Of a DNA stretch of 64,000 nucleotides, positions 4,337 through 42,590 are shown one piece after another. The position numbers and the translations under genes are program-made. Under the pieces are notes generated by a model. That model ran no database searches, was not told where the DNA came from, and saw only the letters and a list, made by a program, of their open reading frames with translations. Source of the stretch: Xanthomonas bromi (GTDB lineage: Bacteria; Pseudomonadota; Gammaproteobacteria; Xanthomonadales; Xanthomonadaceae); NCBI RefSeq assembly GCF_900092025.1, contig NZ_FLTX01000023.1, positions 62,001-126,000 of the forward strand. The letters run 5' to 3'. Numbering within the stretch: position 1 is the first letter of the stretch; each line of letters begins with the position of its first letter.

Positions 4337-5437
4337 ATGCGTTTTACACTGCAGCGCGAAGCCTTCCTCAAACCGTTGGCCCAGGTGGTCAATGTGGTCG
4401 AACGCCGTCAAACCCTGCCTGTGCTGGCCAATCTGCTGGTGCAGGTCAAGGACGGACAGGTGTCGTTGACGGGCACAGACCTGGAAGTTGAAATGATCTC
4501 GCGCACGATGGTGGAGGATGCGCAGGACGGCGAAACCACGATTCCTGCCCGCAAGCTGTTCGACATCCTGCGTGCCCTCCCCGACGGTAGCCGCGTGACC
4601 ATTTCGCAGACTGGGGACAAGGTCACGGTGCAGGCGGGACGTAGCCGCTTCACGTTGGCGACACTGCCGGCCAACGACTTCCCGTCCGTGGACGAAGTGG
4701 AGGCGACCGAACGCGTGGCGGTGCCCGAAGCCGGTCTGAAAGAGCTGATTGAGCGCACTGCATTTGCGATGGCGCAGCAGGACGTCCGTTATTACCTTAA
4801 CGGCCTGTTGTTCGACCTGCGCGATGGCTTGCTGCGCTGCGTGGCTACCGACGGTCACCGTTTGGCGCTGTGCGAGATGGAATTGGAAAAGGCAGGCGGC
4901 GCCAAGCGTCAGATCATCGTGCCTCGCAAGGGCGTGACTGAGCTGCAACGCTTGCTGGAGGGGGCTGATCGTGAGGTGGAGCTGGAAGTGGGTCGCAGCC
5001 ATATCCGTGTCAAGCGCGGTGATGTGACCTTTACCTCGAAGCTGATCGACGGCCGCTTCCCGGACTACGAGGCGGTGATTCCGATCGGTGCTGACCGTGA
5101 GGTCAAGGTGGATCGTGAAGCCCTGCGTGCATCGCTGCAGCGTGCCGCCATTCTGTCCAATGAAAAGTACCGAGGCGTGCGTGTGGAAGTATCTCCGGGT
5201 CAGTTGAAGATCAGCGCGCATAACCCTGAGCAGGAAGAAGCGCAGGAAGAGATCGAGGCGGACACCAAGGTCGACGATTTGGCGATCGGCTTCAACGTCA
5301 ACTATCTGCTCGACGCGCTGTCGGCGTTGCGCGATGAGCACGTGGTGATCCAGCTGCGCGATGCGAATTCGTCCGCACTGGTGCGTGAGGCAAGCAGCGA
5401 GAAGTCGCGTCACGTGGTGATGCCGCTGCGTCTCTGA
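4337..5437 (+). CDS. dnaN: DNA polymerase III beta subunit (sliding clamp)
   Basis: DnaN forms the ring-shaped processivity clamp for DNA polymerase III. The 366-residue product matches the family length. It shows the three-fold repeated clamp architecture, starting with MRFTLQREAFLKPLAQVVNV and ending with the conserved C-terminal VVMPLRL. Typical blocks are RQTLPVLANLLV and FTSKLIDGRFPDYEAVIP. It lies 277 bp behind dnaA. A strong hairpin terminator and a parS palindrome follow within 50 bp, so the transcript probably ends there rather than continuing into recF. Confidence 0.98.
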   Translation: MRFTLQREAFLKPLAQVVNVVERRQTLPVLANLLVQVKDGQVSLTGTDLEVEMISRTMVEDAQDGETTIPARKLFDILRALPDGSRVTISQTGDKVTVQAGRSRFTLATLPANDFPSVDEVEATERVAVPEAGLKELIERTAFAMAQQDVRYYLNGLLFDLRDGLLRCVATDGHRLALCEMELEKAGGAKRQIIVPRKGVTELQRLLEGADREVELEVGRSHIRVKRGDVTFTSKLIDGRFPDYEAVIPIGADREVKVDREALRASLQRAAILSNEKYRGVRVEVSPGQLKISAHNPEQEEAQEEIEADTKVDDLAIGFNVNYLLDALSALRDEHVVIQLRDANSSALVREASSEKSRHVVMPLRL

Positions 5438-5442
5438 CGCTT

Positions 5443-5458
5443 CGTTCCACGTGGAACA
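5443..5458. promoter_or_regulatory. parS centromere-like site 1 (ParB binding)
   Basis: The sequence CGTTCCACGTGGAACA contains the perfect 14-bp palindrome GTTCCACGTGGAAC, the core of the chromosomal parS consensus used by ParB in Pseudomonas-type gammaproteobacteria. It sits between the dnaN stop codon and the dnaN terminator. Two further perfect copies lie in recF at 6951 and 7578. Confidence 0.9.
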
Positions 5459-5463
5459 CGAGA

Positions 5464-5487
5464 AGCCCGGCGAATGCCGGGCTTTTT
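5464..5487 (+). terminator. Terminator after dnaN
   Basis: The stem AGCCCGG / CCGGGCT with a 6-base loop is followed by five T residues, a classical intrinsic terminator about 27 bp after the dnaN stop codon. Confidence 0.85.
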
Positions 5488-6197
5488 ATCTGGGATGTCC
5501 GGGCGCCTTTGCTGTGCCTGGCTTCGTTGACTCAACCGCCTGTGCCGGCCATCGCGCATGATTGGCTACAGCGCTGCGAAGACTTCCAGCAAACAAGGCA
5601 AAAAACAGTCATTGAAGCAAGGGCCACGTTCAGCACGACGGTGTTGCATGGACCAGATGCTGACATTCGCTGTGGGCGGTTTTGCTTTCGCGCAGCGCCT
5701 CCACAAGCAGCGATGAGAGGACCCAACCTCTGTCAAAGTGGTCTGCGATGCTGTCCAGGTACGTAGCCTCGGCTTCGTCGGGCTGCCTGAAAGTGCTCAG
5801 GGCCTGCCAAGGTCATCAATGAGGCCGTCGTGAAGCCCGCCGTGATCCACGCGATCTACTGGCAGAGACACGACAGCCGTGGTGTGCGCTGGTCCCAAGT
5901 GACGTGGGGCTGGCATGAACCGACAAGAAGATCGCAACACGCAAGTCAATCTCAGCGGGGCCGGTTCGAGTTTCCAGTCCTCTCACGCCGTTATCAAACA
6001 AGGCATGCCTTGTCTCAGGATACCAACGTAGCGCGAAATCATCCGGGGCCCGATCCCCCGGCAAAACAAACTGACTTGAAAACTAGCGTGCACTTAACCT
6101 GTCTGAACGAGTTCAGCGCACAAGCTGGTTCACTCCTGTCTGCGTTCCGCTGGGTTCCCTGACCAAAGTGTATGGCCCATTGACGCCCTTTTTTGAC
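5488..6197. other. Gene-free stretch between dnaN and recF
   Basis: About 700 bp without a gene I can support. Open frames at 5509-5766, 5830-6162 (plus) and 5816-6064 (minus) exist, but their products are Arg/Ser/His-rich, resemble no family I know and lack convincing ribosome-binding sites. The stretch may be decayed or structural DNA of the origin region. Confidence 0.5.
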
Positions 6198-6414
6198 TTA
6201 TGCACATCGCCCTTTGCTTTTAAATCTAGAAATAATTTAAGAGCTTAGTGGTGGTGGTAGGGGCAGATTTCGCTTAAAACCATATCAAAGCGTTGTTTTT
6301 AAAGCTTTTTATGGGGTTGAAACCCTGTGCTTATCACCCTGTTTGCAGCTCTATAAGTTGTGGATAAGGCCAAAGCGGCCTGACGACCTTGCTTTTATCC
6401 ACACGTTATCCCCT
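6198..6414. other. AT-rich stretch with DnaA boxes upstream of recF
   Basis: The DNA from about 6180 to 6330 is visibly A+T-rich (for example TTTTAAATCTAGAAATAATT at 6218-6237) in a G+C-rich genome. Next to it are two perfect DnaA boxes of opposite orientation, TGTGGATAA (6359-6367) and TTATCCACA (6395-6403). Weaker boxes are TTATGCACA (6198-6206, one mismatch) and TTATCCCCT (6406-6414). An AT-rich patch adjoining DnaA boxes is the usual shape of an unwinding element. It may be the origin itself, one half of a bipartite origin, or a DnaA-controlled recF promoter. Confidence 0.55.
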
Positions 6415-6520
6415 GCTTATCTCTCGCCCACCTATGCGCGTCCCTGCACGGGTTGCGTGCCGATCACGTATCCTTCGATTCGACCGGCACGCCGGATTAC
6501 ATCCCAGAGCACACCGATCG

Positions 6521-7627
6521 ATGCATGTAGTGCGGTTGTCCATTCATCGGCTTCGTCGGTTCCAAACCGTGGAGCTGCATCCCGCCCGTGCATTGAATCT
6601 GCTGACCGGCGACAACGGCGCGGGTAAGACCAGCGTGCTTGAGGCCTTGCACCTGATGGCATACGGCCGCAGCTTCCGTGCCAGGGTCAGGGACGGCCTG
6701 ATCCAGCAAGGCGCGAACGACCTTGAAGTCTTCGTGGAATGGAAGGAAGGCGGCGGTGCTGCAGGCGAACGGACACGTCGAGCTGGCTTGCGTCATAGCG
6801 GGCAGGAATGGACGGGTCGTCTGGACGGCGAGGACGTGGCACAGCTGGGCACGTTATGTGCGGCGCTGGCCGTGGTGACCTTCGAGCCCGGCAGCCATGT
6901 GTTGATCAGTGGAAGTGGCGAGCCGCGCCGGCGCTTCCTGGATTGGGGGCTGTTCCACGTGGAACCCGATTTCCTGGCGCTGTGGCGACGCTACGCGCGG
7001 GCGCTCAAGCAGCGCAATGCGCTATTGAAGCAAGGGGCGCAGCCACGCATGCTGGATGCCTGGGATCATGAACTAGCCGAAGCAGGCGAAACCTTGACGT
7101 CCCGGCGCATGCGCTACCTGGAGCGTCTACAGGATCGGCTGATCCCGGTGGCAAACACGATCGCGCCATCGCTCGGCTTGTCGGCACTGACGTTCGCCCC
7201 AGGCTGGAAGCGCCACGAGATCTCGCTTGCAGACGCACTTTTGTTGGCCCGCGAGCGCGACCGCCAAAATGGCTACACCTCACAAGGCCCGCACCGCGCG
7301 GACTGGGTGCCCAGCTTCGACGTGCTTCCTGGCAAAGACGCACTGTCTCGCGGCCAGGCCAAGCTTACGGCCCTCGCCTGCTTACTTGCGCAGGCCGAAG
7401 ACTTTGCGCTTGAGCGCGGCGAATGGCCGGTGATCGCGTTGGATGATCTGGGGTCGGAGCTGGATCGGCACCACCAGGCGCGCGTCTTGCGGCGGCTTGT
7501 CTCCGCGCCAGCGCAAGTGCTGATCACCGCAACCGAAACCCCACCTGGACTCGCAGACGCCGGGGCGCTATTGCACCGGTTCCACGTGGAACACGGCGAG
7601 GTCGCGCTGCAAGCCTCCTCGGACTGA
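6521..7627 (+). CDS. recF: DNA replication and repair protein RecF
   Basis: RecF is an SMC-like ATPase that loads RecA at gaps behind stalled forks, together with RecO and RecR. I chose the ATG at 6521 (MHVVRLSIHRLRRFQTVELH), giving 368 residues; the open frame extends upstream but family similarity starts here. Walker A is GDNGAGKTSVLEAL (about residues 29-42). The ABC-type signature lies in the LSRGQAKLTALA block and Walker B in VIALDDLGSELD. Two perfect parS palindromes lie inside the coding sequence, both encoding Phe-His-Val-Glu. It is followed by gyrB after 113 bp. Confidence 0.96.
   Translation: MHVVRLSIHRLRRFQTVELHPARALNLLTGDNGAGKTSVLEALHLMAYGRSFRARVRDGLIQQGANDLEVFVEWKEGGGAAGERTRRAGLRHSGQEWTGRLDGEDVAQLGTLCAALAVVTFEPGSHVLISGSGEPRRRFLDWGLFHVEPDFLALWRRYARALKQRNALLKQGAQPRMLDAWDHELAEAGETLTSRRMRYLERLQDRLIPVANTIAPSLGLSALTFAPGWKRHEISLADALLLARERDRQNGYTSQGPHRADWVPSFDVLPGKDALSRGQAKLTALACLLAQAEDFALERGEWPVIALDDLGSELDRHHQARVLRRLVSAPAQVLITATETPPGLADAGALLHRFHVEHGEVALQASSD
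6951..6966. promoter_or_regulatory. parS site 2 (inside recF)
   Basis: TGTTCCACGTGGAACC has the perfect GTTCCACGTGGAAC palindrome and lies within the recF coding frame, where it encodes LFHVEP. It is about 1.5 kb from parS site 1. Confidence 0.9.
7578..7593. promoter_or_regulatory. parS site 3 (3' end of recF)
   Basis: GGTTCCACGTGGAACA has the same perfect 14-bp palindrome, about 35 bp before the recF stop codon, where it encodes RFHVEH. With sites 1 and 2 it makes a cluster of three parS within 2.2 kb beside the origin. Confidence 0.9.
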
Positions 7628-33486: not shown

Positions 33487-34587
33487 TCAGCGTGTTGTGC
33501 GTGCAGCAGAGGTACGTGCGGCGGCAGCAGCAGGAGCACGCGTCGCTCGGGCAGCCTGTGGCGACAGGATCGCCATTTGCGGCTTGTTGGTACCGTCCTT
33601 GTTGGGATGCACGTTGTACGAATAGGTGGTGTTCCACCATGAACCGGCCGCCCACCAGGTCCAGCCCAGCCATACATCGGCGTTGGTGTTCATGTACGCC
33701 AGCATGCCTTGCAGCGCCTGGTTGCAGACCGCGTTGTTGGCGGTGCCGAATTCGCCCAGGAAGCCCCGCTTGCGGTTGGTGCGCAGCCACCCGGTGAAGT
33801 TGCGCAAACGCTCGGCACCAATCGTGCTGCTGACGCAGGTGCTACTGGTACCGCTCGAATCTGCGTCCAGATACTGATGCACTTCAAAGGCGTAGCGATT
33901 GAGCGGGTCGTAGAGGGATGCGAGCGCGGTGGCGTTGGAGTAACCATCCGTGGTCGGCGAATACCAACTATGCGCGCCGGTCCACAATGCGCCCGGTACC
34001 AGAATCAGGTTATTGGCGCCGGTCCTGCGGATTGCCTCGATGGCGGCCTGCGCTGCGCCGGCCCATTCGCTGGCCGAAATATTGTTGGGCTCATTCATCA
34101 GCCCGAACATCACCGCATTGTCGCTTTTGAATGCCAGTGCGAGGCGACGCCATATATCGGTAAACGTGGACACCGGTACTTGCGGGCTCCCGATCTTGTA
34201 GCCTTGATACTTGGCGTAGTTATGCAGATCGATCACCAAATACATGCCGGCTGCCTTGGCACGTGCCACCGCCTGTTGCACCAGCGCCAGCTGCGCCGGA
34301 TCCAGCTCGCCGCGCGCGGTGGGTTGCAGGCGTTCCCACAGGATCGGCAGGCGAATGGTGTTCATGCCGACGCCGGCGAAATAGGTGTAATCGCTGGCCG
34401 CCGCGTACATATAGTCCTTGTTGAGAACTCCGGGCTTTTTGGAAGATGCGAATTCGGCACCCGACAGATTGACGCCGGCATAGGTAAGCGCGCGCTTCTG
34501 CGCGTGGGCAAGCGGCAGGCTGGCGAACATGATGAAAAGCAGCGTAGAGCGCACGAGCGTGCGCAGCGAGAAAGACAAGGCAGACAT
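33487..34587 (-). CDS. GH5 endoglucanase, copy 1
   Basis: A secreted glycoside hydrolase family 5 cellulase, cleaving beta-1,4-glucan in plant cell walls. The ATG at 34587 follows GAAGGAG; 366 residues. Signal peptide about residues 1-30 (cut after AHA). The acid/base Glu166 lies in FGLMNEPN, the nucleophile Glu279 in GFLGEFGTAN. It is a catalytic domain only, with no linker or carbohydrate-binding module. The tail (about residues 343-366) is Ala/Arg/Thr-rich and unlike the other two copies. It is the last of three tandem GH5 genes. Confidence 0.93.
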   Translation of the reverse strand: MSALSFSLRTLVRSTLLFIMFASLPLAHAQKRALTYAGVNLSGAEFASSKKPGVLNKDYMYAAASDYTYFAGVGMNTIRLPILWERLQPTARGELDPAQLALVQQAVARAKAAGMYLVIDLHNYAKYQGYKIGSPQVPVSTFTDIWRRLALAFKSDNAVMFGLMNEPNNISASEWAGAAQAAIEAIRRTGANNLILVPGALWTGAHSWYSPTTDGYSNATALASLYDPLNRYAFEVHQYLDADSSGTSSTCVSSTIGAERLRNFTGWLRTNRKRGFLGEFGTANNAVCNQALQGMLAYMNTNADVWLGWTWWAAGSWWNTTYSYNVHPNKDGTNKPQMAILSPQAARATRAPAAAAARTSAARTTR

Positions 34588-35218
34588 AAACAACTCCTTC
34601 GACGGCGGTGGGAGATGCGAGTACGTGCTTGCGCGTCGCGTGATGCGTTGCATCCGCTTGAGTCGGTGCATCTGCTGTGCCCAATTGCTGCGCACGATGA
34701 ATAGAGCGCCAATCTGCGAACTGCATCGCAGTCACACTCTGTAAGTCGGGTTTTTGAGATCGATAGACCTCACAAAACCATCGCGCTGCGTTTGCGCAAT
34801 GGCATCGAGCGCTCCGCGGCGCTGTCGATTTTGCGTCGTATGGACGTGTCCGCCGTCAGCGGCATGGCGTCATCTCCATGACGCCATGCCGCTGTTGAAA
34901 AACCCGAGGACGAGACGGGATCGGCTGTATCGACTTTCTCGTACAGATGCGACGAAACAGCCGGCCGGCATGGCAACGGTCAGTCCGGCAAGACGCGTGC
35001 GCTCGGCGCTTGGGATACCCGTGATGGGTGTTGCGCCGATTCCCCGCAGCGCCGGTCTGGGAGGTCCCTGGCCGTGTTGTTGCGGGTAACACGGCTGAAA
35101 ACGACGCTACAACCAACAGCCGGTCGCGGCAGTGACCTGGCAGCCATCACGCGTACGCTCCGGTGGCTGCGCCGTTCACGCCCATCCGACGATTGCTCGC
35201 TGGTGAGATGGGCCGCGC
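34588..35218. other. Gap between GH5 copies 1 and 2
   Basis: About 630 bp with no supportable gene. It should contain the promoter of GH5 copy 1 (minus strand). No PIP box (GCGAA-N15-GCGAA on this strand) or clear promoter was seen. Confidence 0.45.
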
Positions 35219-36271
35219 TTAATTGGTAATCCGGCGCGCACGCGGACTCAATATCGACATCTGCGGTTTGTCGCGACCTTGCGCATCCGGATGCACGTTG
35301 AACGGATATGCCTCGCCCCACCACGCACCTGCCGCCCACCAGGACCAGCCCAGCCAGACATCGCTGTTGGATTCGAGATAGCCCAGCATGCCGTTGAGCG
35401 CCAGATTGCAGGTGACACTTTTGCCGGTACCGAACTCACCGAGAAACCCGCGTTTTTTGTTCAGACGCAGCCATTCGGTGAAGCTGCGCAGCCGCTCGCC
35501 CCCTATCGTGGCGCTGACGCACGCGCCGCTGGTGCCGCTGGAATCGGTATCCAGGTATTGATGCGCCTCGATGGCATAGCGATTAAGTGGGTCGCGAATG
35601 GATGCCAGTGCCACTGCATTGGATTGCCCAGCCACCGTGGAATACCAGCTGTGGGCGCCTGTCCACAACGCACCCGGCACCAGAATCAGATTATTGGCGC
35701 CGGTTTTGCGAATCGTATCGATCGACGCCTGTGCGGCGGTTGCCCACGACTGCGGGCTGATGTCGTAAGGCTCATTCATCAGCCCGAAGATCACCGCGTT
35801 GTCGCTCTTGAAGGCGATTGCCAGTCGTCGCCACAGATCGTTGAAGGTGCTGATCGGCACGTTCGTGCTGCCGATGGTGTGGCCGTAGTACTTGGCGTAG
35901 TTATGCACATCCACGATCAAGGACATGTTTGTCGCCTTGGCATTGGCGACCGCCTGCCGGATCAACGCCAGCTGCGTAGGATCCAGCTCGCCACCGGCCT
36001 TGGGCTGCAGGCGTTCCCACAGGATCGGCAAGCGCACGATGTTCATATGCTTGCCAGCGAAGTACGCATACTCATCGGCTGACGGATAGCGGTAGTCGAT
36101 GTTGAGCACGCCCGGTTTTTGCGAGGATTTGATTTCGGCGCCGGAGAGATTGACGCCGGCATACTTCAGGCCGCCTGTGCCTTGCGCCTGCGCAAGTGGC
36201 ATGACGGCAAGCAACAGCAAAGACAGCGCGCGGCAATGCAGCCCGCGCCTACGCTTGGTATGGGACAGCAT
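35219..36271 (-). CDS. GH5 endoglucanase, copy 2
   Basis: This second GH5 cellulase has 350 residues. The signal peptide covers residues 1-30 (MLSHTKRRRGLHCRALSLLL ... AQAQ). Catalytic Glu167 is in FGLMNEPY and Glu279 in GFLGEFGTGK. It keeps the same block order as copies 1 and 3 (YAGVNLSGAE, LPILWERLQP, GALWTGAHSWYS, VWLGWSWWAAGAWW) and is closer to copy 1. No binding module is present. Its own promoter must lie in the 36272-37008 gap. Confidence 0.93.
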   Translation of the reverse strand: MLSHTKRRRGLHCRALSLLLLAVMPLAQAQGTGGLKYAGVNLSGAEIKSSQKPGVLNIDYRYPSADEYAYFAGKHMNIVRLPILWERLQPKAGGELDPTQLALIRQAVANAKATNMSLIVDVHNYAKYYGHTIGSTNVPISTFNDLWRRLAIAFKSDNAVIFGLMNEPYDISPQSWATAAQASIDTIRKTGANNLILVPGALWTGAHSWYSTVAGQSNAVALASIRDPLNRYAIEAHQYLDTDSSGTSGACVSATIGGERLRSFTEWLRLNKKRGFLGEFGTGKSVTCNLALNGMLGYLESNSDVWLGWSWWAAGAWWGEAYPFNVHPDAQGRDKPQMSILSPRARRITN

Positions 36272-37008
36272 GGGGCACTCCTAAGATTCTGTGTGCGGGA
36301 GACGTGTGCAGCGACGACGCGTTGATGCGGGCGTGAGCACGCTCGGTACAACAGCAACGCGTCCATCACCAGACTAGGCGTATCCGCCCGCACAAACTAC
36401 GGCCACGAGGTACCAATCCGCCAAGCTGAGCAGTGACGCGCAGTTATGCTGTCGAAGCGCGCACGCATGGCCCGAAAGCGACGCGATTGCTTGCAGACGC
36501 TTCAATCGAAATGGCGGCGCGCCATGATGTACTCGATGGCGTGTTGCACATCGCGCGCGATTGCTGTCGTTCTCTTTGCAACCCCTCTGCGCCGCAGCGC
36601 TCATCCTTCAATCGGGATGCCTTGCTTCACTGGCAACGCAAATGCACGTGTCGCGCAAATACCAACAGGCAGAGACAGTGCGTAGACGATCTCGGGCTCA
36701 GCAGACGCGATGGCGCGGCAACGGAGACATCGCTTGCACGCAGTCCACGCGGATCGGCGTGCGTGTGTCACACCACTGCGCATGTGAGATGGCAGTGTTC
36801 TACCGCAACGTGCACGAGCGCCTCGGAGATATCGCCGACACGCAATGGGCGGTTGTTGCAAATCATCGGAACGCGCACGTGGGCAAAACGCAGCGTTGGG
36901 CTGGCGATCGATCAGCTCCGGCTTCTGCTATCGCTGTCCACATACAGCCAGCGGCGCTCTGCTTTTCCTCCAAGTAGGCTGCGCCATGCGGCACACGCCA
37001 AGAGGCAC
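36272..37008. other. Gap between GH5 copies 2 and 3
   Basis: About 740 bp. Several open frames cross it, but none gives a recognisable protein. It should hold the promoter of GH5 copy 2. No IS ends or long repeats were noticed. Confidence 0.45.
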
Positions 37009-37010
37009 AC

Positions 37011-37043
37011 AAAAAAAGTGGCCGCAACGCCGGTTGCGACCAC
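37011..37043 (-). terminator. Terminator after GH5 copy 3
   Basis: GTGGCCGCAAC / GTTGCGACCAC stem (one mismatch, GCCG loop) is followed on the minus strand by seven T residues, 20 bp past the stop codon. Confidence 0.88.
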
Positions 37044-37062
37044 GGTCTACCTGCGTCGCAGA

Positions 37063-38136
37063 TTACTTGCCGGCGCGGTGTGCGTACTTGCTCAGGATCG
37101 CCATCTGCGGCTTGTCGCTGCCGTCCTTGCCCGGCTGCACGGTGAATGGGTAGTCCGGCTTCCACCAGGAACCAGCCGCCCACCAGGTCCAGCCCAGCCA
37201 GACGTCGCTGTTCTCCTCCATGTAGGTCAGCATGCCTTCCAGCGCCTTGTCGCAGACGGGATTGTTGGCTGTGGCGAATTCGCCCAGGAAGCCCTTCTGC
37301 TTGTTCTCGCGCAACCACGACGTAAAGCCCTGCAGCTTTTCTTGGCCCACCGAATCGCTGGTGCAGACCGGCTTGGTGCCGCTGTAGTCGTTATCCAGGT
37401 ATTGGTGCGCTTCGAAGGCCAGATTGTTGCCAGGGTCCTTGAGGATCGCCAGCGCCTTGGCGTTGGAGACGCCGTAGCTGGTACTGCGCCAGCTGTGTGC
37501 GCCTGTGTACGCGGTGCCCGGCACCAGGATCAGATTCTTCGCACCGGTCTTGCGGATTGCGTTGATCGCTCCCTGCGCGGCATTGGCCCAATCGGGTGCG
37601 GAGATGCCATTGGGCTCGTTCATCAACCCGAAGATCACCGCCTTGTCGTCCTTGAACTCCAGCGCCAGCCGGCGCCACAGATCGGCCAGTGCGGCGGCGG
37701 GGACTTCATTGGTCCCGATGCGCTTGCCGTTGTACGTGGCGTAGTTATGCAGATCCAGGATCAGGAACTGCTTGTTGGCCTTCGCCGCCTCCAGCGATTT
37801 CTTGATCAGCCCGATCTGGGCCGTGTCCAGATCGCCGTTGAGCTCTGGCTGCACGCGCTCCCATAAAAAAGGCAGGCGCACCGTATTCATGCCCTTGCCG
37901 GCGAAATAGCTGAAATCCGAAGCGGCAGGATAGGTGTAGTCCTTGAACAAGGTGCCAGGCTTTTTGCGTGAGTTGAACTCGGCGCCGGATAGATTGACGC
38001 CGACATATTTCAGGCCGGCGGTTTGCTTCTTCGGGCCAGCCGGCTCCTTGGCCTGGATTAACGGACTAGCAGCGAGCAAGGTCAACGCGAGCGCGGCGGT
38101 GCGCAAGCGCGGGAAGTGCGGGGGAGTGCGGAACAT
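37063..38136 (-). CDS. GH5 endoglucanase, copy 3
   Basis: This third GH5 cellulase has 357 residues from the ATG at 38136, chosen because AAGGAG lies 6 bp upstream; two earlier in-frame ATGs lack it. Signal peptide about residues 1-30 (ALALTLLAASPLIQA). Catalytic Glu174 is in FGLMNEPNG and Glu286 in GFLGEFATAN. It is the most divergent of the three copies, with a Lys/Pro linker (KEPAGPKKQT) after the signal. It has its own terminator, so each copy is probably transcribed separately. Confidence 0.93.
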   Translation of the reverse strand: MFRTPPHFPRLRTAALALTLLAASPLIQAKEPAGPKKQTAGLKYVGVNLSGAEFNSRKKPGTLFKDYTYPAASDFSYFAGKGMNTVRLPFLWERVQPELNGDLDTAQIGLIKKSLEAAKANKQFLILDLHNYATYNGKRIGTNEVPAAALADLWRRLALEFKDDKAVIFGLMNEPNGISAPDWANAAQGAINAIRKTGAKNLILVPGTAYTGAHSWRSTSYGVSNAKALAILKDPGNNLAFEAHQYLDNDYSGTKPVCTSDSVGQEKLQGFTSWLRENKQKGFLGEFATANNPVCDKALEGMLTYMEENSDVWLGWTWWAAGSWWKPDYPFTVQPGKDGSDKPQMAILSKYAHRAGK

Positions 38137-38444
38137 GGAAGTCTCCTTCGGCATCGACATGGGCGGCCGCAGGGGGAGGGCACGGCCGGTAGAGATGGTG
38201 CAGGGCGATCAGCTGTTGCGTGAGCCTAGAAGCTCGCACGTTAGCGCGCCATTCACGCGCCACGTGCGGATTTGATCGCCTGCGGACACGCGCCAGGCGC
38301 ATCATGCCGCGGTGGTAGCGTCGCAAGAGACCAGGTAAGACGCACTGTCGCAGGAGTGCGACCTTCGCGCGTTTTAAGCTATCGATCCTTTCCGTCTGTT
38401 GTTGGCGCACCTTGCCGATGACGCATCACCCCGGAGTTTTCCTC

Positions 38445-39503
38445 ATGAGCACAGCCCACGCCTACGCTGCCCAGGCCGCCCATCAACCACTTGCCCCGTT
38501 TGTGTTCGAACGTCGCGCGCCCGGTCCTGACGATGTGCAGATCGATATCGCCTATTGCGGTGTCTGTCACTCCGACCTGCACACCGCGCGCAACGAATGG
38601 CACAACACGCTATACCCGTCCGTCCCGGGCCACGAAATCGTTGGCCGCGTGACCGCCGTCGGCAATGCGGTGACCGGTTTCAAGGTCGGCGACCTGGCCG
38701 GCGTCGGTTGCATGGTCGACAGCTGCCGTAGCTGCGCCTCCTGCCAGGAGGGCGAAGAGCAGTACTGCGAAGCCGGCTTCACCGGTACCTACAACGGGCC
38801 GATGTTCGGCGGCGGCAAGAACACCTATGGCGGCTACTCCGACCATATCGTGGTCGACCAGAAGTACGTGCTGCGCATCTCGCACACCGACAACCTGGCC
38901 GCGGTGGCACCGCTGCTGTGCGCCGGCATCACCACCTATTCGCCGCTGGCGCACTGGAAGGTGGGTCCGGGTCAGAAGGTGGGCGTGGTCGGCCTGGGCG
39001 GCCTGGGCCACATGGCAGTGAAGATCGCCAAGGCGATGGGCGCTACCGTGGTGCTGTTCACCACCTCCGAAAGCAAGCGCGCCGACGCGTTGCGTCTGGG
39101 CGCCAGCGAAGTGGTGATCTCCAAGGACGAAGCGCAAATGGCGGCGCAGGCCAGCACGCTGGATTTCATCCTCAACACCGTGGCCGCCCCGCATAACCTG
39201 GACCCGTTCCTCAACGCACTCAAGCGCGATGGCGCGATGGTGCTGGTCGGCGTGCCGGAGGAGTCGCACCCGTCGCCGAGCGTGTTCAATCTGATCATGA
39301 AGCGCCGCACGCTAGCCGGTTCGCTGATCGGCGGCATTCGTCAGACTCAGGAAATGTTGGATTTCTGCGCCAAGCACAACATCGTCTCGGACATCGAAAC
39401 CATTCGTGCCGACGAAATCAACACCGCCTACGAGCGCATGCTCAAGAGCGACGTGAAGTACCGCTTCGTGATCGACATGGCCTCGCTGGATAAGGCGGCC
39501 TAA
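38445..39503 (+). CDS. NAD(P)-dependent zinc alcohol dehydrogenase
   Basis: A medium-chain zinc dehydrogenase of the cinnamyl-alcohol/YahK-type NADP-dependent aldehyde reductase group. The ATG at 38445 gives 352 residues. The catalytic zinc ligands are in YCGVCHSDLH and GHEIVGRV. The structural zinc Cys cluster is in VDSCRSCASCQEGEEQYCEA. The Rossmann motif is GVVGLGGLGHMAVKIAKAMG. It probably reduces aldehydes such as those released from plant walls, which is inference from family and location next to cellulases. Confidence 0.93.
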   Translation: MSTAHAYAAQAAHQPLAPFVFERRAPGPDDVQIDIAYCGVCHSDLHTARNEWHNTLYPSVPGHEIVGRVTAVGNAVTGFKVGDLAGVGCMVDSCRSCASCQEGEEQYCEAGFTGTYNGPMFGGGKNTYGGYSDHIVVDQKYVLRISHTDNLAAVAPLLCAGITTYSPLAHWKVGPGQKVGVVGLGGLGHMAVKIAKAMGATVVLFTTSESKRADALRLGASEVVISKDEAQMAAQASTLDFILNTVAAPHNLDPFLNALKRDGAMVLVGVPEESHPSPSVFNLIMKRRTLAGSLIGGIRQTQEMLDFCAKHNIVSDIETIRADEINTAYERMLKSDVKYRFVIDMASLDKAA

Positions 39504-39689
39504 GTCGGGATTGCGACAGGGTGTTATGTCACTGCCTGCATCCTTTTTGGATGCGGGCGGTGGTATGTGAGGAGTTATGTAATTTGCTGAGTCGCCGATT
39601 GGATTTACATTCAGGGTATCAGGCCACTGCTTGTCGCTCGTTCAAAGCGATGTAAATTTTATTTGACGCCCATTAGTATAAAAATCAAG

Positions 39690-40391
39690 CTAAGTAAATC
39701 GACGGACTTGGCTTGAATGAGTTATTAGATTCTCTGTATGCTGAGACGATATCAAAATATATTTGGATCCATAGGCAATTAAGAACCCAGAGTTGTACGG
39801 TACTGTCATTTTTGTAGGTTCACCGTCGGCATCGATCACATACTCATGCTCAATGCGAAATTTGGAAACAACGCCGGCGACGCAAACTTCATCAGGCTTG
39901 CCGAGAGGATGGAAAAATAATGGACCTCCAGAAAACCCTTCATTGTTGATTGCATCAATATGGAGAATCTGCGGGTCGTGGAGTTTAAACGAAGAAACTG
40001 TCCCTTTCTTTGCATACGCGCAAGGCATGCCGCCCATAAAATTTCCAACGTCTCCCCACATTTTGTACGGAAAACCTAGGAAGTATACGTCTTGTCCCCA
40101 CACAAGACCTGCAATAGTTGGAGTAACAGTTAAAGCAGCCGAGCTAAGTCGCTGACGCAATTTCAGGACAGAGATATCGATTTCACCTCTTCCGTGTCCA
40201 ACGACCTCAGCACTTAAGATTTGCCACTTGTCAGCATGAAAAATTGCGATTTTAAAATCTGGACTTTCTTGGTTGAGTAGGTGGCGTGCGGTCACCAAGA
40301 ATTCTTCTCCGTCAACCTCCAGAGTAAACACTGTGCCGTACGCCTCTGCCTTAATAAAAAAGGTGCGTAGCAAGATGTTGGAAGTAACCAT
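39690..40391 (-). CDS. Trypsin-like serine protease in a low-G+C cassette
   Basis: The 233-residue product has a chymotrypsin/trypsin-like triad: His37 in TARHLL, Asp72 in GEIDISVLKL and Ser154 in NEGFSGGPLFF. It has no signal peptide and so is predicted cytoplasmic. The coding DNA is A+T-rich (19 of 60 bases are G or C at 39721-39780), unlike both neighbours. It follows the ParB-like gene by 29 bp on the same strand. Cytoplasmic trypsin-like proteases of this type occur in bacterial conflict systems, but a defence role is only inference. The DNA from 39504 to 39689 is also A+T-rich and gene-free. Confidence 0.75.
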   Translation of the reverse strand: MVTSNILLRTFFIKAEAYGTVFTLEVDGEEFLVTARHLLNQESPDFKIAIFHADKWQILSAEVVGHGRGEIDISVLKLRQRLSSAALTVTPTIAGLVWGQDVYFLGFPYKMWGDVGNFMGGMPCAYAKKGTVSSFKLHDPQILHIDAINNEGFSGGPLFFHPLGKPDEVCVAGVVSKFRIEHEYVIDADGEPTKMTVPYNSGFLIAYGSKYILISSQHTENLITHSSQVRRFT

Positions 40392-40420
40392 GAAAGCTCA
40401 CACCTGAATTATCTTGAAAT

Positions 40421-40963
40421 TCAAAAAATATTTGGCTTGAATGGAGCGCTAGGTAGCGACAGCAACCATACGTTATGTGAAGTTTTCAAGGCTGGATGGT
40501 TGTGCCGAATCATGCCGCGAAGATAGGCGAGACGCATATGGCCCTCTATCAGTTGATTTGGATGCATCGCTGCGCCCTTTGGGTGCTTCAAGCCTGACGA
40601 GTCAGGAGCCACTATGATCGGCTTGGGCGATGTGCCATTAGTGAGCATGTGCATTGCTAGCCATGTGTTTTTACGCATCTGATCCCTGAATAGTTCGTCT
40701 CCCCAGTAATCGAGCGTCTCTAGCCAATTGTCAAAATGGCCAATCTTCAAGATTTCTGCATTGCTTAGGCTGGCTTGCGTAAAGACGAACTGCTCGATTG
40801 ACCTATCCAACCAATAGGTTTCGAAATCTCGCCAATGTCTGTGTACCCAACTTTCGACGACACACCGTGGAAAGTTGATTAATCGTGTCGGCCAACGAGC
40901 GTAGTAGTGCTCAAATGACTCGGCGCCGGAGTCACCATGGCACTTCACTGAAGGGACAATCAT
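40421..40963 (-). CDS. ParB/Srx-fold-like hypothetical protein
   Basis: A 180-residue protein rich in Trp and His, from low-G+C DNA. I recognise no named family as a whole. Residues 113-152 look like the ParB/sulfiredoxin fold: PKPIIVAPDSSG (PIIV strand) and then NQLIEGHMRLAYLRGMIRHN, matching the ParB Box pattern of hydrophobic-(E/D)GxxR-x2-A. The N-terminal 110 residues are helical. It begins only 16 bp behind gltD and runs into the trypsin-like protease gene, so both are probably transcribed from the glt operon. Function unknown. Confidence 0.55.
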   Translation of the reverse strand: MIVPSVKCHGDSGAESFEHYYARWPTRLINFPRCVVESWVHRHWRDFETYWLDRSIEQFVFTQASLSNAEILKIGHFDNWLETLDYWGDELFRDQMRKNTWLAMHMLTNGTSPKPIIVAPDSSGLKHPKGAAMHPNQLIEGHMRLAYLRGMIRHNHPALKTSHNVWLLSLPSAPFKPNIF

Positions 40964-40979
40964 GTTCCCGGCTGATAGC

Positions 40980-42590
<1,611 letters not shown>

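Follow-up and report, generated by a model that had tools for sequence, protein, structure and literature searches.

Two A+T-rich genes behind gltD in Xanthomonas bromi are very probably separate integron cassettes with decayed attC sites

Introduction

As a rule, an integron cassette can be recognised only as long as it keeps its attC site. The insertion of such cassettes into genomes at attG sites was reportedly described by Loot et al. (Nature Microbiology, 2024); in this process, as in the inserts behind gltD described here, cassettes enter the chromosome outside attI and attC. For Xanthomonas, the main text of PMC12444791 describes an ilvD-intI platform whose cassettes are small genes, mostly of unassigned function, with attC ends; it also records CALINs at seven loci outside the ilvD region, and a pair of cassette genes behind ilvD of X. 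cucurbitae in which no attC can be recognised. Cassettes, CALINs and attG insertion are already known.

The locus analysed here differs from these systems in two respects. Compared with the Xanthomonas cassettes and CALINs in the main text of PMC12444791, its attC sites have been eroded or are gone altogether, and its insert content depends on the species. Whereas attG insertions in E. coli are spread over numerous loci (same main text), here one locus is reused. That main text, supplements excluded, mentions neither gltD nor glutamate synthase, although its CALIN locus named 'NAD(P)/FAD-dependent oxidoreductase' might be gltD by another name. We found no paper joining Xanthomonas, gltD and integrons, and no published description of one chromosomal site that is used again and again and holds cassettes with eroded attC, in a search that took in PMC12444791 without its supplements.

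Results and discussion

Position and composition of the gene pair

The window is a 64-kb stretch of X. bromi DNA in which two genes, here called A and B, follow gltD on the same strand (Table 1), with 16 bp between the gltD stop codon (40980-40982) and B and 29 bp between B and A. The open reading frames and the G+C profile bear out the preliminary description of two A+T-rich minus-strand genes of foreign composition at these spacings, G+C being 0.43-0.51 over 39501-41000 as against 0.59-0.71 in the flanks (500-bp steps, 5 kb on either side). The gene names used here (gltD, gltB, adh, acyltransferase, KfrA, moaE) are presumptive, in part given by eye. No sigma-70-like promoter was found on either strand of 39450-41050 (mean of 2.4 in shuffled sequences), and it is plausible that A and B, as promoterless genes, would be served by read-through from the glt operon. 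The inverted repeat on the adh side was not called as a terminator by the promoter/terminator scan; similar stems are visible by eye in sister genomes.

Table 1. Coordinates of the features at and around the gene pair (positions in the window)
Feature	Position	Strand	Description
gene B	40421-40963	minus	180 aa; stand-alone ParB/sulfiredoxin-fold protein (predicted); motifs GT-x3-PIIV and LIEGHxRL; first cassette after gltD (probable)
gene A	39690-40391	minus	serine protease of the Trypsin_2 family, 233 aa, with triad H37-D72-S154; probably the second cassette
attC-like site, decayed, end of cassette B	40395-40452	minus	B ends within it, its tail PFKPNIF being encoded there; 12.4 bits, E 2
attC-like site, decayed, end of cassette A	39676-39728	minus	entered by the A reading frame; 17.4 bits, E 0.1
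gltD	40980-42551	minus	glutamate synthase small subunit by sequence; frame as listed, true start possibly further in
inverted repeat	39530-39562		bounds the variable segment towards adh; probable bidirectional terminator
alcohol dehydrogenase-like gene (adh, by eye)	38412-39503	plus	transcribed towards gltD; forms the opposite border of the variable segment

Elsewhere in the window, three related cellulase-like genes stand in tandem on the minus strand at 33487-38160 (frames of 402, 350 and 365 aa, by eye), and the window is probably near the replication origin, since a recF-like frame is seen by eye at 6389-7627.

Decayed attC sites at the ends of both genes

An attC covariance model was built from 15 sites in four locus records (L084, L125, L127 and L002) and run unfiltered over both strands of the 64 kb. 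It gave four matches at E≤10, of which the site behind A ranks first and that behind B third; of the other two, one falls within gltB (16.8 bits, E 0.14) and was regarded as a chance match, and the other is a short hairpin at 41040 (E 8.8). Both sites lie on the expected strand at the 3' ends of the genes, and the chance that two of the three best matches would fall within about 60 bp of the expected places on the right strand is, by a hand estimate, about 1e-6. Over 30 gltD-locus records (108,569 bases) these two sites are the sole matches at E≤5, the other 29 records giving none. An attC site at the 3' end, the mark of a cassette, can therefore be assigned to each gene, in both cases as a weak, decayed site. 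A CALIN is defined by two or more recognisable attC sites in the absence of intI; the pair has two sites, at E 0.1 and 2. The last 19 or so residues of the A reading frame are translated from attC-like DNA and are not conserved protein, as are the final few of B.

The secondary tests were mixed. The folding of the two sites is not markedly better than that of shuffled sequences (z -1.0 to -1.6). In half-site alignments over 23 gene ends the B site stands out (p 0.015 and 0.007), while the segment used for A lay off its attC-like site and scored at chance; among the sister inserts L118 (p 0.002), the right half of L105 (p 0.009) and the right half of L143 (p 0.022) stand out, the others being weak.

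The relatives of the two genes carry the argument further. The nearest relative of A (66%) stands between an attC at 6374-6491 and another at 7161-7218, on a 22-kb contig where a pattern search counts 49 attC-like sites, 18 of them in L084 and 31 in L127; the DNA over which A and this relative can be aligned takes in the 3' attC and the 5' core as well. For B, the relative in Lysobacter antibioticus (61%, L017) starts at 6974; two attC sites, at 5860 and 6460, lie no more than 1.1 kb away, and a further weak attC (E 0.29) at 6947 lies over its start. The site at 6460 was itself in the training set, L002 being the same Lysobacter place as L010/L017, and some matches in the arrays of L084, L125, L127 and L002 are in part a product of the training. 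The relative in Stenotrophomonas terrae (63%) starts 4.6 kb after the last of three attC sites. Both genes thus have a relative in or beside an attC array, that of A between two sites and that of B next to them. Elsewhere such sites are sparse: the six other relatives of A (L085-L090) gave no match to the model, which is tuned to the family's own sites, and strong matches occur at two places only (L010/L017 and L014/L016) among 31 B records scanned.

Based on these data, we consider it very probable that A and B are two separate integron cassettes, B then A, head to tail in the gltBD direction, promoterless and with attC sites that have since decayed, at a capture or turnover hot spot behind gltD. 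Independent capture of the two is the best reading, and their adjacency would then be explained by both being gene cassettes.

The gltD 3' end across the genus

gltD was found in all 35 genomes of the genus. The segment behind it holds an A+T-rich insert of more than 500 bp in 16 genomes, in 8 nucleotide clusters, and a G+C-rich insert in 11; of the remainder, three are short (196-351 bp: L097, L103, L122), two are cut by the contig end (L101, L109), two are near-empty (130 and 141 bp) and one is of another kind. The sister of our genome on the gltD tree (support 100/99) carries a different insert. The 13 insert labels, short and cut loci included, require 18 changes on this tree (minimum 12; shuffled mean 22.7), which was built from 718 columns with 13 of its 32 inner branches open and on which recombination of gltD itself would raise the count. 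The gltD 3' end is a turnover hot spot at which species hold different cassette-like genes without recognisable attC, as counted at the gltD locus alone.

Such turnover could also arise if the segment were a general hot spot for foreign DNA, entered by homologous recombination across the flanks or through another element, with the attC traces recording a former residence. We regard this as possible, though we do not favour it. The inserts of 11 of the 35 genomes are G+C-rich and hold, by eye, a longer acyltransferase-like gene (L111-L114, L116, L117, L121, L123, L138, L139, L146; L139 placed in this class from 441 bp), the sister inserts lack attC, the common gltD and adh flanks permit exchange between species, and insert types are mixed on the gltD tree, all of which would fit such a hot spot. 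Against it stands the nearly uniform orientation of the inserts: 14 of the 15 families of reading frames of at least 100 aa in the A+T-rich inserts read with gltD, the fifteenth being a single opposite-strand frame.

The relatives of the sister inserts also speak against a general hot spot. The search for relatives of four insert proteins (L118, L099, L098 and L104) covered 217-247 genomes from the family. That of L118 has five relatives, four with attC in the stretch, three of these between two attC sites, although the closest (70%, L128) has no attC nearby; that of L099 has one relative outside the gltD locus, between two attC sites; that of L098 has three, all with attC in the stretch at distances from 4 bp to 1.2 kb; and that of L104 has none. 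For three insert families, therefore, eight of nine relatives outside the gltD locus have attC in the fetched stretch, four of them between two sites, in a family where attC is widespread; this indicates a cassette pool. At least one attC site was found in 102 of 119 genomes of the family, so that cassettes would be a plentiful source.

The junctions point the same way in part. At the gltD junction L099 has the canonical core letter for letter (GTTATGC), and L100, L102 and L105 share six of its seven letters, two insert clusters in all; these core-like letters are again at odds with a general hot spot. Over 21 loci, five reach at least six of seven letters (seven in L099; six in L100, L102, L105 and L119, the core of L119 lying away from the border), which makes the junction core a weak indication. 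In the window, the core at the border of B and gltD is at chance level, while the region at the 5' border of A aligns with the core of the 66% relative. Because the junction core is absent from the window, insertion by an integrase at gltD is here a step that we infer. A general hot spot can in any case be reconciled with a cassette origin of the genes, and recombination across the shared flanks could also pass inserts from species to species after cassettes had been captured.

In our own genome the order ilvD-intI described for Xanthomonas (PMC12444791, main text) recurs on contig C27 (L126), where an intI copy bearing three in-frame stops stands between ilvD and an attC array; an intI fragment with attC sites is also seen on C67 (L125). 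A match to intI above the curated cut-off was found in 16 of the 35 genus genomes, matches below it being left out of this count because they occur in 14 of 14 control genomes as well. The simplest course would be that an active integrase placed the cassettes behind gltD through a non-attI (attG-type) site and that attC decay then left them stuck behind gltBD.

We tentatively extend this to a specific proposal, in which the gltD 3' end may, in trans, play the part of attI in capturing cassettes: the ilvD platform would supply the integrase for repeated insertion there, the glt promoter would stand in for the integron promoter, and loss of attC would turn cassettes into permanent tail genes of the operon. 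If true, this would be an unrecognised route from cassette to ordinary gene that attC-based searches miss. A fixed chromosomal parking place of this kind, to which the pool shared across the family would go on supplying cassettes that then lose attC, would show how integron cargo turns into stable operon genes and would imply an undercount of cassette-derived genes in surveys, and the gltD 3' end would be a place to seek new small proteins (anti-phage, anti-plasmid, stress).

Constraint on the two proteins

A and B might, as cassettes, be decaying passengers without present function. The decayed attC sites, the three sister genomes that keep just short segments and the stops in our own intI copy would fit this view, which we consider unlikely: both frames are open, and the triad of A and the EGHxR motif of B are intact. 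Because dN against relatives is only 0.27-0.28 (three comparisons) with dS beyond estimation and presumably saturated, constraint on the A and B proteins is suggested, although most of the divergence may predate their arrival here.

The protease A

A matches the Pfam family Trypsin_2 (PF13365; E 2.7e-10, 41.6 bits, cut-off 27.6), and His37, Asp72 and Ser154 are invariant in 8/8 aligned sequences, our own A among them; profile and catalytic triad thus place A among the trypsin-like peptidases, as had been read from the sequence at the outset. The absence of a signal peptide claimed there also stands, the N-terminus running by eye straight into the protease domain. Two PADLOC profiles match, LmuA of Lamassu (E 7e-9) and RT-Protease_XI (E 3e-6), each through the trypsin-like protease domain that they share with A. 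A is a bare protease domain that leaves the remainder of both profiles unmatched: it was rejected as a Lamassu LmuA because the match is limited to profile positions 22-174 of 425, and as a member of the RT-protease systems because the match is confined to the protease part. A is most likely a cytoplasmic trypsin-like protease, as predicted from its sequence, that works independently of B.

Protein B and the ParB/Srx fold

The 180-residue protein had been guessed to adopt a ParB/Srx fold, and this holds: when its predicted structure (pLDDT 96) was compared with 290 chains, the matches, at modest Z, were chiefly to ParB/Noc, sulfiredoxin and Osa. ParB, Noc or sulfiredoxin account for 16 of the 22 matches listed, among which Osa and SspE also appear. 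Residues L138, E140, G141, H142, R144 and L145, in the box I/II motif test, are invariant in 27/27 family members, and in hhalign comparisons with seven ParB sequences boxes I and II fall in register (P 0.008-0.03, at a probability below 5%). B shares with the ParB/Noc CTPases and sulfiredoxin a fold in which boxes I and II can be aligned in register, but it differs from ParB/Noc in having only 180 aa, no ParB_N Pfam match and, by eye, no ParA neighbour. B was rejected as a partition ParB: PF02195 (ParB_N) is not among the eight Pfam families that match any of the 27 members at E≤1, and the one PF02195 match of our own genome lies elsewhere. Searches of B itself against Pfam, PADLOC and NCBIfam matched no model at E≤10.

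Osa is a plasmid fertility-inhibition protein of the ParB/Srx fold (PDB 4ovb, 4o7k) with ATPase/DNase activity. Osa is absent from the PDB sequence matches of B at E≤10, and B here has no plasmid context. GmrS (DUF262) has been assigned to the same fold, and the GmrS/DndB motif DGQQR/DGQHR, (I/V)(I/V)DGQQRL, resembles the LIEGHxRL of B; GmrS is partnered by GmrD, unlike B (available text of PMC4619093). Among the families listed, no DUF262 or DGQHR Pfam model matches a B family member at E≤1. The phage family PHROG 8867, of unassigned function, is matched at E≤0.1 by 10 of the 27 members (best 1.7e-55), the window's own B matching only at E 0.077; tblastn of B against phage records gave no match, and the viral scan for B yielded two loci, one of the same sequence as a Stenotrophomonas contig. 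B is most likely a putative nucleotide-binding ParB/Srx-fold protein of the Osa/GmrS/DndB sort that works independently of A. A role of A or B against foreign DNA is possible.

A and B as one system

The preliminary description had raised the idea of a joint system active in bacterial conflict. Such a system might combine the protease as effector with the ParB-like protein as sensor or regulator and would have been transferred as a unit. The two genes do lie 29 bp apart on one strand and are both foreign in composition, A matches protease parts of PADLOC profiles, and the fold of B recurs among proteins of plasmid conflict and of defence (its structural matches include Osa and SspE, the latter presumably a defence protein); yet we rejected this reading as very improbable, because homologues of A and B were not found together, the outcome that the preliminary description had itself named as fatal to the idea. 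The B reading frame is present in 72/72 B loci and the A reading frame in 7/7 A loci, but an A-like frame occurs in 0/72 of the former, at least four places being counted twice (L010/L017, L011/L019, L012/L021, L014/L016), and a B-like frame in 0/7 of the latter (both at E<10). The genome-contig scan supplied 62 of the 72 B loci, a good many of them from Aeromonas and Photobacterium species; the rest are plasmid, viral or family loci. One Lysobacter genome holds relatives of both genes, on separate contigs. The separate attC-like end of each gene, an LmuA match of the protease part alone and the spread of B relatives over many Aeromonas and Photobacterium species without A also argue against the joint system.

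The B family, for which the searches turned up no Pfam model, is widespread in Aeromonas and Photobacterium (many species; L024-L071, L077), often flanked by the same genes, by eye moaE-like in Photobacterium, and there is probably a vertically kept, uncharacterised ParB/Srx-fold protein. On Hymenobacter plasmids (L007, L008, L009; about 4900-6500) an exonuclease-domain gene precedes the B relative, with a helicase or WYL-domain gene upstream, an arrangement that is possibly a defence module including B. Because the neighbours vary between hosts, from the exonuclease-domain gene of the three Hymenobacter plasmids to genes that by eye are KfrA-like in Pseudoxanthomonas, small membrane-protein-like in Lysobacter and moaE-like in Photobacterium, no recurrent partner was adopted for B. 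The viral scan found no relatives of A; in the phage context, an A-like protease is the last gene (5001-5681 of L090) of the gut phage record NatCom_34192, and two further phage records match alike.
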